The translations under genes and the position numbers were made by a program. From a bacterium CG2_30_37_16 (GTDB lineage: Bacteria; Patescibacteriota; CPR2), in the NCBI GenBank assembly GCA_001872945.1, contig MNYC01000049.1, positions 1-38,410 of the forward strand: a stretch of 38,410 bases of DNA. The letters are read 5' to 3'. Positions 18,910 through 24,368 of the stretch are shown one piece after another. How positions within the stretch are numbered: position 1 is the first letter of the stretch; every line of letters starts with the position of its first letter. Under the pieces are notes generated by a model. The model was not told the origin of the DNA. It saw only the letters and a list, made by a program, of their open reading frames with translations, and searched no databases.

Positions 18910-18963
18910 TTGACACGCTATATGTAGTGGCCTTAATCTAGTATATACCGCTACATATAGCTT
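18910..18963 (+). promoter_or_regulatory. Promoter overlapped by two NrdR-box-like palindromes
   Basis: TTGACA at 18910-18915 with TAATCT at 18934-18939. Boxes ACGCTATATGTAGTGG (18915-18930) and CCGCTACATATAGCTT (18948-18963), centres 33 bp apart. GCTATATGTAG and CTACATATAGC are perfect inverted repeats. Confidence 0.85.
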
Positions 18964-18983
18964 AGGAGGAATTGGATGATTGG

Positions 18984-19457
18984 ATGAAATGTCCCGAATG
19001 TAAAAAATCTGAATCAAAAGTGATAGAATCGAGAGAGCTTTATGATGGGGAATTGATTAGGAGAAGAAGGGAATGCCTTAAATGCCAAATGCGTTTTACT
19101 ACTTATGAAAGAATTGAACAGCCGGTAATTATGGTAATAAAAAGAGATGGTAAAAGAGAGCAGTTTTCTAGAAATAAGATCGCCAACGGTGTGTACAGGG
19201 CCTGCGAAAAACGAAATATACCGGAGACGGAAGTTGAAGAAGTGGTAAGTTCGATTGAAAAGAAAATACGGGCGAGGGGAGAAAATGAGATTTCGTCGAT
19301 TGAAATTGGGGAGCAAGTCCTTAAAGAATTGTCAGGCTTAGATGATGTTAGTTATATCCGTTTCGCGTCTGTATATCAGTCTTTTATCGATATAAACAGC
19401 TTCCATGAGATTATTAAAAATATGAAAAAGAAAGATAAGGGGAGTGAAAATGAATAA
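18984..19457 (+). CDS. nrdR: Transcriptional repressor NrdR
   Basis: MKCPECKKSESKVIESRELYDGELIRRRRECLKCQMRFTTYERIE zinc ribbon plus ATP cone. The track ORF begins at 18972. Confidence 0.97.
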   Translation: MKCPECKKSESKVIESRELYDGELIRRRRECLKCQMRFTTYERIEQPVIMVIKRDGKREQFSRNKIANGVYRACEKRNIPETEVEEVVSSIEKKIRARGENEISSIEIGEQVLKELSGLDDVSYIRFASVYQSFIDINSFHEIIKNMKKKDKGSENE

Positions 19458-21054
19458 TGAGGACGCAAAGGTGGAAAACAATATTTCAGATCCTAAATTT
19501 AATAGCTTATATAATAGCAAAATCGAGCCGGTTGCAATTGATAATGCTATCAATCTCTTAATTGAAAAAGCAATAAAACAGGAAAAATTTTATAATACTA
19601 CATTAAATTTAGATAACATTAAAAGAGAGTTTGTCAGCATAATAAACAGGTTAAATTTTCTTCCTTCAAAAAAATTCTTGGATCGGGAGCTGGGAATAGA
19701 GACAAAAGAGGAAAATACTCAGATGACAGAGTTAACGTATGAAGACGTTGGTATGAGTACTTTACAGAATTCGTATATGTCCGTCAGCGATGAATATCTT
19801 CAGAAACTTAGCTTAAATGATTTTATTTTACTAAAAAAAGATGATGGAACGGAGCAAAAAAAGAAATCCGAAGAAGTGGCAAGGGAGCTACTTATCGAGG
19901 CTAAGAAATATAGAATTAAAGGTTTTGTATTTATAGACGAAGTTGAAAGATTCAATCCTTTAGGAAAAAAGTTTAAGCTTTCAGAAATTTTGTCATCAAG
20001 CCAGTTGGCTACCGAAAGAGAGGAGATTGCTGAGGGGTTTATTAATTTAGCAAACTTTATAAACGACAATAAAGTTAACTTTGACGAATTAAAACATACT
20101 ATATATATCGCTGTGCGCTTTTTAGATAACATAATTGATATTTATGACTACCCCACCCTAGAAATTGAAGGTCAAACAAAAAAAGCCAGAAAAATTGGTC
20201 TTAGTATTTGCGGGTTCGGCGATGCCATTGGTAAATTGGGTATTAGCTATGAGTCCAAAGAGGCCATTAAGCTTTTAGGAGAAATCTCTAGGTATGTAGA
20301 TACAGAAGCTAAAAATGCCAGTTCTGAGCTTGCAAAAGAAAGAGGCGTTTTTCCATTATTTAATGAGGGTATTTTTGATAACACAAAACCCTTAAGAAAT
20401 GCTAGTCTTACTTGTTTAAATGAAAATTCTGAGATTGCCAAATATTTTGACGTTTCCCCCGGCATCAAGGAAATAAATAAAGAGGCTTCTCCGGAATGGC
20501 AAGTTAGAATGCAAAGAGAATCACAGAAATATACGGATCTTGTAAGTATTAAGAACATCTTAATATCTCCGGAAGTTGATGGCGATGAAATGCTGAGTAT
20601 TTTTAGGCTTGCATCCGGGCTTGGTATTAAAATACTAAAGTTTAAACTGACAAATGCTGTTTCTATTAGGATGAATGGCAGCGAGAAGGATGAAGCCGTG
20701 GAAGAACAAAAATTAAGCGAAAGGCCATTAATTTTAAATGGTAAGACTGTTCGTTTTCAGTCGAATGGCAGTGATATCTATATAACAATAAATTATTCTA
20801 GTGACCTAAAACCAGTAGAAGTCTTGCTAAGTAAGGCTACCGTTTCCAACTGTGAAGCAATTATTATAAATTTAGTTAATATTATGCTAGGAAAAAACAT
20901 TTTGCTATCGGAAATCATAGAAATATTAAAACAAAATGTTGTCAGTGATGAATGCGCATGCGGGTGTGGGAACATTTTAAATGTCGTCGAAGCATATGAA
21001 ATTTTAAAAAATGATAGTTTAGACGAAAAAGAAAAGAAAATACAACTTGGATAA
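19444..21054 (+). CDS. Degenerate class II (NrdJ-like) ribonucleotide reductase homologue with TSCPD-like C-terminal domain; predicted catalytically dead
   Basis: NrdJ-like blocks: SVSDEYLQ, GFVFIDEVERFNP, FINLANFINDNKVNFDELKHTIYIAVRFLDNIIDIYDYPTLEIEGQTKKARKIGLSICGFGDAIGKLGI, RNASLTCL, VRMQRESQKYTD, and RPLILNGKTVRFQ...YITINYSSDLKPVEVLLSKA. The NPCGE active-site motif is absent. Confidence 0.82.
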   Translation: MKMNNEDAKVENNISDPKFNSLYNSKIEPVAIDNAINLLIEKAIKQEKFYNTTLNLDNIKREFVSIINRLNFLPSKKFLDRELGIETKEENTQMTELTYEDVGMSTLQNSYMSVSDEYLQKLSLNDFILLKKDDGTEQKKKSEEVARELLIEAKKYRIKGFVFIDEVERFNPLGKKFKLSEILSSSQLATEREEIAEGFINLANFINDNKVNFDELKHTIYIAVRFLDNIIDIYDYPTLEIEGQTKKARKIGLSICGFGDAIGKLGISYESKEAIKLLGEISRYVDTEAKNASSELAKERGVFPLFNEGIFDNTKPLRNASLTCLNENSEIAKYFDVSPGIKEINKEASPEWQVRMQRESQKYTDLVSIKNILISPEVDGDEMLSIFRLASGLGIKILKFKLTNAVSIRMNGSEKDEAVEEQKLSERPLILNGKTVRFQSNGSDIYITINYSSDLKPVEVLLSKATVSNCEAIIINLVNIMLGKNILLSEIIEILKQNVVSDECACGCGNILNVVEAYEILKNDSLDEKEKKIQLG

Positions 21055-21078: not shown

Positions 21079-23193
21079 TTGAGTGATCGTTCTGAAATGC
21101 AGCAAGAGCCTTTAAAGTTGGATAAGGAGAGTTTACAGAAAAAAACATTCACCCATATCATAAAAAGAAATGGTGATTTGGAAAAATTTGATACCTTAAA
21201 AATAGACGAGGCCATACTTAAGGCCGGAAGTGCAACGGCTGAATTAAATGAAAAGCTGGCCCATAAACTTTCCCTAAAAGTTGTCTCAATTCTTTATAAA
21301 AAATTTGAAAATATTTCTCCGAATGTGGAGCAAATTCAAGACATTGTGGAACATGTTTTAATTGACTCTGTGTTTGAAGAAACTGCCAAAGCTTATATTA
21401 TTTACAGAAGAAAAAGAGCAGAAATAAGAGAAATAAAAAAAATTCTCGATGTTGAAGGATTAATGGAGGATTATTTAAACGAAACCGACTGGAGAGTTAA
21501 AGAAAATAGCAATATGAGTTATTCTCTCCAAGGGCTTAACAACTATATTAGTTCGTCGGTAACAGCCAAATATTGGCTAGAAAAAATGTATCCCGATAAT
21601 ATCAAAAAAGCTCATATTGAAGGCGATATCCACATTCATGACTTATATTTACTCGCCGCTTATTGTTCTGGGTGGGACTTAAAGGATCTCTTGCTTAGAG
21701 GCTTTGGAGGTGTAAGAGGAAAAATTGAAAGCGCTCCGGCAAAACATTTCCGCGTCGTTTTAGGCCAAATAGTTAATTTCTTCTATACTTTGCAGGGTGA
21801 GGTTGCCGGTGCTGTGGCTTTTTCTAATTTTGATACATATCTGGCCCCTTTCATTAGATACGACAAGTTAACTTACGATGAAGTTAAGCAATGTCTTCAG
21901 GAGTTTGTATTCAATATGAATGTACCAACAAGGGTTGGATTTCAGACACCGTTTACTAATATTACGATGGATTTAACTCCATCAAAGCTCATTGGCGAAG
22001 AAAATGTGATAATTGGTGGTGAGCTGAAAAAAGAAAAATACAAGGATTATCAAGAGGAAATGGACCAGCTAAATAGAGCATTTGCCGAAGTAATGATGGC
22101 AGGCGACTCTAAGGGAAGGGTTTTTACTTTTCCAATACCAACCTACAATATTACGAAAGATTTTAATTGGGAGAATCCGGTTTTGGATCCGGTTTGGGAA
22201 ATGTCGGCTAAATATGGTATCCCGTATTTTTCAAATTTTGTAAATTCCGACATTGATCCTGATGACGCAAGAAGTATGTGCTGTCGCCTTAGAATTGATA
22301 ATAAGGAACTCCGAAAAAGAGGCGGCGGATTATTTGGCGCTAATCCTCTTACCGGAAGTATTGGCGTTGTTACCATTAATTTAGCTCGTGTTGGATTTCT
22401 GTCTAAAACAAGAAAAGAATTCTTCGAAAGGCTCGAATACCTAATGAATGTTTCTCATGAAAGTCTGGTTTTGAAAAGGAAAACTGTGGAAAAGTTTACT
22501 ACTGAGGGGTTGTATCCATATGCGCGAGTTTATTTGGATAACGTTGCTAAAAGGTTCGGCAAATATTGGCAGAATCATTTTTCCACAATTGGTATTCACG
22601 GCATGAACGAAGCCATGATCAATTTTATGGACAAAGACATGGGAGACGTGAAAGCGCGAAATTTTGCCATAGAAGTCATGGATTATATGAATAAGAGAAT
22701 ATTGGATTTTCAGCACGAAACAGGAAGCCTATATAATTTAGAGGCTACTCCGGCAGAAGGAACCACATACCAATTTGCCCGAGCCGATAAGAAAAAATAT
22801 CCCGAAATTAAAGTTGCCAACGAAGCAGCCTTTAAGGATGGAGCCGAACCATACTACACTAACTCATCATGGCATCCGGTTGGATATACCAGCGACATAT
22901 TCGAATTATTAGATGCTCAGGAAGAATTCCAGATACGCTATACGGGAGGAACGGTTCTACACAATTATCTTGGTGAGAGAATTAATGACCTCAAGGCCTA
23001 TAAGAAACTGGTTAAAAAAATTGCTGAAAGCTATAAGCTCCCGTATTTTACGCTTACTCCAACTTTTAGCATTTGTCCCAAACATGGCTATTTGGCTGGC
23101 GAGCATAAATTCTGTCCCAAATGTGATGAGGAAATAGGGTATAAGGAGCAGCTAAACATAAATTTAAATACAAAAAGCAAAGTAAAGGTATAA
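21079..23193 (+). CDS. nrdD: Anaerobic ribonucleoside-triphosphate reductase NrdD, main polypeptide lacking the glycyl-radical segment
   Basis: N-terminal ATP cone; HDLYLLAAYCSGWDL; RSMCCRLRID; zinc site CPKHGYLAGEHKFCPKCD. Terminates 20 residues after the last zinc-site Cys with no RVxGY motif. Confidence 0.95.
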   Translation: MSDRSEMQQEPLKLDKESLQKKTFTHIIKRNGDLEKFDTLKIDEAILKAGSATAELNEKLAHKLSLKVVSILYKKFENISPNVEQIQDIVEHVLIDSVFEETAKAYIIYRRKRAEIREIKKILDVEGLMEDYLNETDWRVKENSNMSYSLQGLNNYISSSVTAKYWLEKMYPDNIKKAHIEGDIHIHDLYLLAAYCSGWDLKDLLLRGFGGVRGKIESAPAKHFRVVLGQIVNFFYTLQGEVAGAVAFSNFDTYLAPFIRYDKLTYDEVKQCLQEFVFNMNVPTRVGFQTPFTNITMDLTPSKLIGEENVIIGGELKKEKYKDYQEEMDQLNRAFAEVMMAGDSKGRVFTFPIPTYNITKDFNWENPVLDPVWEMSAKYGIPYFSNFVNSDIDPDDARSMCCRLRIDNKELRKRGGGLFGANPLTGSIGVVTINLARVGFLSKTRKEFFERLEYLMNVSHESLVLKRKTVEKFTTEGLYPYARVYLDNVAKRFGKYWQNHFSTIGIHGMNEAMINFMDKDMGDVKARNFAIEVMDYMNKRILDFQHETGSLYNLEATPAEGTTYQFARADKKKYPEIKVANEAAFKDGAEPYYTNSSWHPVGYTSDIFELLDAQEEFQIRYTGGTVLHNYLGERINDLKAYKKLVKKIAESYKLPYFTLTPTFSICPKHGYLAGEHKFCPKCDEEIGYKEQLNINLNTKSKVKV

Positions 23194-23204
23194 GGGAGAG
23201 TATT

Positions 23205-23372
23205 ATGTCAGAAGAAGTTAACAAAATTGAAGCATTGCGTCAGCCTTGTGAAGTTTTTTCCAGAGTTGTTGGCTACATAAGGCCGGTTCATCAATGGAAT
23301 AAAGGCAAACAATCAGAGTATAACGACCGAAAAATGCTTAACTTGAGGCTTGAGAATGAGGAAGCCTGTTAG
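23205..23372 (+). CDS. Separate 55-aa glycyl-radical polypeptide of NrdD (not in the supplied ORF track)
   Basis: ATG 23205 to TAG 23370-23372: MSEEVNKIEALRQPCEVFSRVVGYIRPVHQWNKGKQSEYNDRKMLNLRLENEEAC. GGGAGAG lies upstream. The frame differs from nrdD by 2. Matches the canonical NrdD C-terminus. Confidence 0.93.
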   Translation: MSEEVNKIEALRQPCEVFSRVVGYIRPVHQWNKGKQSEYNDRKMLNLRLENEEAC

Positions 23373-23374
23373 AA

Positions 23375-24067
23375 ATGAAAATAGGGGGATTCCAGAAAAC
23401 TACGCTTATCGATTATCCGGGTAAAATTGCAGCCTCAATATTTACAGTGGGCTGCAATTTTCGTTGTGGATATTGTCATAATCCTGATTTAATTGATGGT
23501 AGAAATATCATTTTAGAGGATGAAGCGAAGGTTTTGGAGTTCTTTAAAAAAAGAAAGAATACCCTAGAGGGAGTTGTCATATCGGGCGGAGAACCTCTGC
23601 TGCAAAAAGACTTGCAAGATTTCATTATGCAAATTAAAAATCTGGGGCTTTTGGTAAAACTAGATACTAACGGCTCGAATCCGCAAAAACTAAAAAAATT
23701 ACTTGACCAGAAATTAGTGGATTATGTAGCCATGGACATAAAAAATAATTTAAGCAGCTATGACCAAACAACAAATATTAAGGGAAGCGGCAAGAATATT
23801 GCGGAAAGTATCGATTTAATTATAAACTCATATATAAATTACGAATTTCGGTCCACAGTTTTGCCGGATCTGCATAATGAAAAAAATATCGAAGAAATTG
23901 GAATAATGATCAAAGGCGCCAGGAAAATGTATCTGCAAAGCTTTAGATCAGGAGTTACTTTAGATGAAAAGTATGCCACGAAAAGAAGCTTTGCTGAGAC
24001 CGAAATGGAAAATCTAAAAACACTGGTATTAAAAAATGTCCTGAGCTGTGATATAAGATTTTATTAA
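23375..24067 (+). CDS. nrdG: Anaerobic RNR activating protein, radical SAM
   Basis: TLIDYPGKIAASIFTVGCNFRCGYCHNPDLI (CxxxCxxC); starts 2 nt after the glycyl-radical ORF. Confidence 0.95.
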   Translation: MKIGGFQKTTLIDYPGKIAASIFTVGCNFRCGYCHNPDLIDGRNIILEDEAKVLEFFKKRKNTLEGVVISGGEPLLQKDLQDFIMQIKNLGLLVKLDTNGSNPQKLKKLLDQKLVDYVAMDIKNNLSSYDQTTNIKGSGKNIAESIDLIINSYINYEFRSTVLPDLHNEKNIEEIGIMIKGARKMYLQSFRSGVTLDEKYATKRSFAETEMENLKTLVLKNVLSCDIRFY

Positions 24068-24104: not shown

Positions 24105-24368
24105 ATGAAAATTCTTGTGTTTTCAAAAAAGGACATATCGGTTATTGAAGAAAATTATTTGAAAGATTTTTATGATACCCTTCAAAGAGATAATTACGAA
24201 GTTGTACCCGTTGATACCGAAGAAGTTGATGGCATCGCCAAGGCTGAAATATACGATATTTACTCTACGCCTTCCGTGGTCGTTACCACAAATGACGGTA
24301 CCTTTATTCAGGGATGGAAGGGCGAAATTCCTCCATTATCAGAAGTTAAATATTATCTACTCACTTAA
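24105..24368 (+). CDS. Small thioredoxin/glutaredoxin-fold-like protein without cysteines
   Basis: 87 aa; Trx-like IYDIYSTPSVVVTTNDGTFIQGWKGEIP block with cis-Pro-like TPS; no Cys in the translation. Confidence 0.6.
   Translation: MKILVFSKKDISVIEENYLKDFYDTLQRDNYEVVPVDTEEVDGIAKAEIYDIYSTPSVVVTTNDGTFIQGWKGEIPPLSEVKYYLLT

Follow-up and report, generated by a model that had tools for sequence, protein, structure and literature searches.

The window, by which we mean the whole 38,410-nucleotide stretch of DNA that was analysed, comes from a member of CPR2 (Patescibacteria) whose genome is 97.75% complete. Its plus strand carries, in this order, ftsA, ftsZ, nrdR, an open reading frame of 536 aa, nrdD, an open reading frame of 55 aa and nrdG. 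The features of the locus are as follows.

18915..18930, no strand assigned: NrdR box 1, ACGCTATATGTAGTGG, a predicted site adjoining TTGACA
18948..18963, no strand assigned: NrdR box 2, CCGCTACATATAGCTT, a predicted site upstream of nrdR
18972..19457, plus strand: nrdR, likely ATG start at 18984 (TIGR00244, 181.7 bits against a cut-off of 124.65)
19444..21054, plus strand: dead NrdJ-derived protein of 536 aa (PF02867 at E 3.3e-27, alignment, dN/dS 0.076)
19522..19668, plus strand: N-terminal all-alpha remnant, residues about 27-75 (alignment; 92% identity to the genus mate)
19669..20058, plus strand: part of the former catalytic barrel, residues 76-205 (strands A-D, redox Cys, specificity helices and NPCG deleted)
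20059..20373, plus strand: helical core kept from NrdJ, residues 206-310, now under the tightest constraint (omega 0.02-0.03, windows 181-340)
20734..21012, plus strand: degenerate TSCPD-like C-terminal domain, residues about 431-523 (alignment, AF2 secondary structure)
21079..23193, plus strand: nrdD, a class III ribonucleotide reductase (RNR) without its glycyl-radical tail (PRK08270, 1020 bits against a cut-off of 548)
23205..23372, plus strand: 55-aa frame with the NrdD glycyl-radical loop SRVVGYIRP, in a separate frame with its own ribosome site
23375..24067, plus strand: nrdG, the activase (TIGR02495, 209 bits against a cut-off of 131)

The original prediction described the 536-aa frame as an apparently inactive relative of the class II enzyme NrdJ, and was correct in its coordinates, frame and length. 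The frame starts at GTG 19444 or ATG 19450, overlapping the nrdR stop, and ends at 21054; the motifs that had been quoted from its product, SVSDEYLQ, FIDEVERFNP, RNASLTCL and ECACGCG, are all present. Residues 144-308 match PF02867 with an E-value of 3.3e-27 (95.7 bits against a cut-off of 23.9). The best matches of the protein are the NCBIfam models of B12-dependent RNRs, at 1.2e-54, yet these full-length NrdJ models score far under their cut-offs (TIGR02504, 130.7 against 399.95 bits; PRK08665, 185.8 against 961 bits). The nearest relative by sequence in the PDB is NrdJ from T. maritima (E=6e-23), and the structural comparison proposed with the prediction gave the same answer, with T. maritima NrdJ as the top Foldseek match (E=3e-21) of an AF2 model with a pLDDT of 75, a pTM of 0.67 and a core at about 90 or above. 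As the input alignment for AF2 consisted mostly of active NrdJs, the match in fold is partly built in, but the sequence match is independent of it. The frame is thereby confirmed to encode an intact protein derived from the class II (B12) ribonucleotide reductase NrdJ.

Two details of the prediction required amendment. The frame had been read as the second half of a class II RNR; while the homology to NrdJ stands, the N-terminal part is also there in shortened form, its LNFLPSKKF aligning with FDFLPNSPTL ahead of an internal deletion of barrel strands A-D. Likewise, the C-terminus is indeed a degenerate TSCPD-like domain, but its ECACGCG cannot be taken as a conserved redox site: the counterpart reads DCVCGSG in the genus mate and is absent from the sister genus, in whose protein the TSCPD match is itself sub-threshold.

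These relatives are the CPR2 genome GW2011_GWC2_39_10, the genus mate, and GW2011_GWC2_39_35, a member of the sister genus in which the syntenic dead homologue has 610 aa and is 25% identical. The dead gene is intact and lies between nrdR and nrdD in all three genomes of the family, across two genera. A sequencing or assembly artefact was rejected, since three separate genomes agree. An active NrdJ in relatives at this locus would have pointed to recent loss in the window, but the genus and family relatives carry the dead protein, and an active NrdJ occupies the same locus only in other families of the CPR2 class.

The lost and kept parts were read from an alignment with 38 active NrdJs, from which the region borders were also drawn. 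The predicted absence of the thiyl-radical Cys and its adjacent Glu was borne out: NPCG of the NPCGE radical motif is deleted at about residues 185-187, and the Glu has become S or N. The N-terminal barrel, as had also been proposed, is largely missing, and the first redox Cys was deleted along with strands A-D. The position of the second redox Cys is occupied by I, and by V and L in the dead relatives. A further deleted segment is one that, from general knowledge of class I and class II RNRs, we take to be the specificity-site helices. RNR helices A and B are named in PMC4390871. The PTGS loop for the substrate phosphate is replaced, the C-terminal Cys-rich tail is absent in all three dead proteins, and the domain profile search gave no match to an ATP-cone. 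An alternative catalytic Cys/Glu pair, which would have undermined the prediction, was not found elsewhere in the protein by the alignment of catalytic positions or by a check of conserved columns. The three dead proteins share no new invariant cluster of Cys or His, Cys504 being their only invariant Cys. Among NrdJ columns that are at least 95% conserved, the dead protein keeps 2/22 in barrel strands A-D and 2/10 in the finger loop, against 5/6 before the finger loop and 5/5 in the helical core. Judged from these sequence features, the protein should be incapable of catalysis by any chemistry known for the family.

The gene is nevertheless under strong purifying selection. Between the window and its genus mate, the dead proteins are 78% identical without a single indel over 536 codons, and our own pairwise implementation of the GY94 codon likelihood gave an omega of 0.076 at a dS of 1.76 (LRT 258 against omega=1), far from the neutral value that would have signified decay. 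For the same pair of genomes, omega is 0.045 for nrdD, 0.046 for nrdR and 0.133 for nrdG. Neutral simulations, 200 at each of three distances spanning 0.5-1.76, accumulated 18-35 stops on average, and every run acquired at least one. Recent decay is therefore rejected by the dN/dS, the neutral simulation and the relatives, in agreement with the original view that so long an intact frame is not simple decay. No frame is broken in the three genomes and dN/dS is not near 1, as would be seen for a pseudogene; by homology, by loss of its catalytic residues and by retention of its gene under selection, the protein is an RNR pseudoenzyme.

This selection is unevenly distributed along the protein. When omega is followed along the sequence in sliding windows, residues 181-340 give 0.02-0.03 and residues 61-220 give 0.11-0.20, with a value of about 0.11 for the C-terminal part. 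In the one pair of dead proteins compared, with regions drawn from the alignment, core residues 206-310 are 90% identical and the former barrel 75% (odds ratio 3.2, p=0.0007), whereas the same core-versus-barrel odds ratio is 0.21-0.98 in 11 pairs of active NrdJs. The core is thus now the most conserved part, whereas in active NrdJs it ranks among the least conserved, and constraint has shifted to it from the former catalytic barrel. Over longer spans the protein has nonetheless diverged faster than its neighbours: in a comparison with the sister genus, it is only 25% identical, and NrdD 77%.

With respect to the operon, both NrdR-box-like sites are kept in the genus mate at a spacing of 31 bases, and similar palindromes, judged by eye, occur in other members of the CPR2 class. 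The paired sites upstream of nrdR make it very likely that the dead gene is co-expressed with nrdR and nrdD. Apart from the dead NrdJ, the genome yielded no RNR other than the product of nrdD with its separate tail. This NrdD is split: in nine genomes of the CPR2 class (the window genome, G001, G002, G003, G007, G008, G009, G013 and G015), the glycyl-radical loop occupies a separate frame of 50-75 aa that has its own start and separates nrdD from nrdG. Repair of NrdD by selenocysteine or frameshifting was rejected, because the tail is a frame with its own start in 9/9 class genomes that have NrdD. Across the phylum sample, the NrdD tail is found in a short frame of its own in about 28 genomes, and in seven it lies far off or on another contig. 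In 2015, a split NrdJ was called the only split RNR outside viruses (PMC4520616). Downstream of nrdG, at 24105-24368 of the window, is an 87-aa thioredoxin-like frame without CxxC that is conserved in G001 and G002.

No other PF02867 gene was found by genome search in the three genomes of the family; a functional NrdJ elsewhere in the source genome, another point raised with the prediction, is accordingly rejected. Searches of the same three genomes for both CobA-type and PduO-type cobalamin adenosyltransferases also found neither, and CobA is present in 6/7 other CPR2-class genomes with NrdJ, the exception being G015 (64% complete). In the other families of the class, the nrdR locus exists in two versions: one has an active nrdJ followed by cobA (G004, G005, G011, G014), and the other has nrdD, its tail and nrdG (G003, G007, G008, G009, G015). 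nrdJ and nrdD thus alternate at one ftsZ locus, which is a swap locus, and since other families hold either gene at this position, the family of the window represents a stage at which nrdD is already in place and nrdJ, though disarmed, persists. An in-place replacement of one RNR class by another has in this way been caught, with relatives that carry nrdJ or nrdD and a family that carries both. The five genomes with nrdR, nrdD, tail and nrdG, from three other families of the class, have no dead NrdJ, and it is therefore dispensable there. G015, where no CobA was detected, encodes NrdJ and a split NrdD on separate contigs (G015:C5 and G015:C47) and is a possible intermediate of the class swap.

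As to the origin of the dead proteins, the nearest matches of their profile outside the family, among 380 sampled genomes of the phylum, are active NrdJs. Viral and plasmid collections returned weak matches only, the named ones including active B12-dependent RNRs. The grouping of the three dead proteins as one clade depends on long branches, and they may stem from the NrdJ of their own class (AU test, p 0.21 for keeping them together).

A second lineage of dead NrdJs was found in the sample, in which 21 genomes have both NrdD and an RNR large subunit. One of these, G364, from a distant CPR family, encodes a dead NrdJ of 751 aa (L105:346-2598, corresponding to G364:C13:25165-27417, minus strand) that derives from a different, PRK07562-like type of NrdJ, and it has an intact class I RNR gene elsewhere in its genome. 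Its genus mate G380 (87% complete) has another dead NrdJ (C30 and C46; L112, L124), cut by a contig end, together with a class I RNR. Barrel strands A-D are deleted in both proteins, and NPCSE and the PTG motif are lost or rewritten. Their helical cores are 68% identical to each other and 73-75% identical to an active relative, with an omega of 0.02-0.03 where estimable, dS being saturated. In the active relatives, G381-G384, NPCSE is present and nrdJ has a gene for a PduO adenosyltransferase nearby; no adenosyltransferase gene was found in G364 or G380. As the borders of the deletion differ between G364 and G380, they may represent one or two conversion events. Together with the family of the window, there are at least two independent conversions of NrdJ in which the same modules were lost and kept. 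Retention of a dead NrdJ is therefore recurrent, in genomes where another RNR class is present, and the loss and survival of the same parts in so distant a CPR lineage suggests an enzyme scaffold with a second job.

Several other proteins in the sample departed from expectation. Tandem RNR frames in G028 were considered as further pseudoenzymes and rejected for the copies examined: four NrdJ-like copies lie in tandem after ftsZ (G028:C12, L041:5374-13442, minus strand), all with NxCGE and one broken by a stop. Similar clusters of RNR matches occur in G048, G054, G081, G228, G363 and G372. The class I proteins of G331 and G059 that lack NxCxE were likewise not accepted as dead, since they carry QLCTE; class I large subunits of two CPR genomes have this sequence around the radical Cys, where NLCTE is usual (L092:1450-4065, minus strand; L093:120-2810, plus strand). 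NrdD frames of 1025-1557 aa with long stop-free inserts were seen in G073:C7, G205:C8, G122:C1, G220:C2, G238:C11 and G169:C11; the inserts break the NrdD family match, as inteins would.

That the dead NrdJ is a selected, non-catalytic protein is very probable. To account for its retention, we propose that the helical core of NrdJ, with the C-terminal TSCPD domain, already had an additional role in binding protein. The takeover of dNTP synthesis by NrdD at the locus would have been followed by the loss of catalysis and of the B12 supply, with the binding role kept, leaving a putative adaptor or regulator of dNTP supply that is co-expressed with NrdR and NrdD. The most constrained piece to be retained is a helical surface joined to the TSCPD-like domain, which suggests that a protein-protein contact is still needed. 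By operon position the candidate partner would be NrdD. The occurrence of the same split NrdD without the dead NrdJ, and of a second lineage beside a class I RNR, raises the possibility that the partner is instead a shared component of dNTP supply, or NrdR; as the accompanying RNR class differs between the two lineages, no one partner suggests itself. To the whole statement, a functional non-catalytic protein from a class II RNR with the mechanism included, we assign a probability of roughly 0.5. A role as adaptor or regulator of dNTP metabolism stands, by itself, at about even odds, and a direct complex with NrdD is rather unlikely. The broader proposal, that the NrdJ core has a hidden non-catalytic function that outlives the enzyme, with a class II fossil serving as dNTP adaptor or regulator beside a class III or class I RNR, is tentative and falls a little short of an even chance.

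Among the alternatives, the dead NrdJ could serve the class III enzyme as a specific subunit or in its assembly, its core binding NrdD, the glycyl-radical tail or NrdG and regulating activation. That its gene immediately precedes nrdD within one NrdR operon in 3/3 genomes is consistent with this, and with NrdD split, an extra partner is thinkable. Such a role is nonetheless unlikely, given that five genomes from three other families of the class have a split NrdD without the dead protein, that NrdD columns otherwise invariant in the class carry only seven changes common to the family, mostly mild, and that the second lineage has a class I RNR and its dead genes are not beside nrdD in the stretch read.

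The original interpretation, in which an intact pseudoenzyme of the NrdR operon is not a product of decay, holds, but the suggestion that it acts as a nucleotide sensor is weakened. A sensor or co-repressor that reports dNTP levels to NrdR would fit the overlap of its start with the nrdR stop and its co-transcription with nrdR behind paired, predicted NrdR boxes. However, the specificity-site segment is deleted, the PTGS phosphate loop is substituted and no ATP-cone was matched, while NrdR has an intact ATP-cone of its own, and the role is improbable.

A decaying remnant at the site of nrdJ-to-nrdD replacement, its frame unbroken by chance, is a still more doubtful explanation. The two arrangements of relatives at the same ftsZ locus, the large in-frame losses and the fast long-term divergence are what it would lead one to expect, but the omega of 0.076 at high dS, the 536 codons free of indels and stops, the three intact genomes in two genera, the inversion rather than uniform relaxation of conservation, and the second lineage all argue against it. 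Finally, the old scaffold could have acquired a new enzymatic reaction. This would explain the strongly constrained, defined core, but with the central barrel half deleted and no invariant Cys/His cluster beyond Cys504 in the three proteins, it is the least probable of these explanations.

Should the proposed second role of the NrdJ core be true, a well-studied essential enzyme carries an unrecognised function in a defined segment, which can be tested in active NrdJs. To our knowledge, inactive RNR large subunits kept by selection are known only from betaherpesviruses. The literature searched, which was of incomplete coverage, yielded no report of an RNR pseudoenzyme in bacteria or in CPR, and the dead NrdJ is the first RNR pseudoenzyme of class II origin known to us, and a recurrent one.

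Of the known systems, dimeric class II NrdJ (T. maritima, PDB 1XJE/3O0O; PF02867) belongs to the same fold family by sequence and predicted structure, and the active NrdJs of the CPR2 class share the position directly after nrdR. Unlike T. maritima NrdJ, the dead protein has no thiyl-radical Cys, redox Cys, specificity site, phosphate loop or Cys-rich tail, and no cobalamin adenosyltransferase was found in its source genome. By description, a further known system likewise belongs to the ten-stranded barrel superfamily and has no function assigned to it; it has no known NrdJ origin or place in an RNR operon. The split class II RNR of Pseudomonas aeruginosa, NrdJa/NrdJb, includes a separate, non-catalytic C-terminal part of NrdJ, NrdJb (PMC4520616). 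The dead NrdJ keeps a related but degenerate C-terminal domain; NrdJb, however, carries out thiol exchange for an active NrdJa, whereas the genome of the dead NrdJ has no active NrdJ and the redox Cys is lost. A further parallel is with the inactive R1 homologues of betaherpesviruses (HCMV UL45, MCMV M45 and HHV-6B U28), RNR large-subunit proteins in which catalysis was lost and which are retained for protein binding (PMC5469499, PMC11772975). Those proteins are viral, derive from class I and act on host signalling, whereas the dead NrdJ is bacterial, derives from class II, has had half its barrel removed and resides in the cell's own RNR operon.
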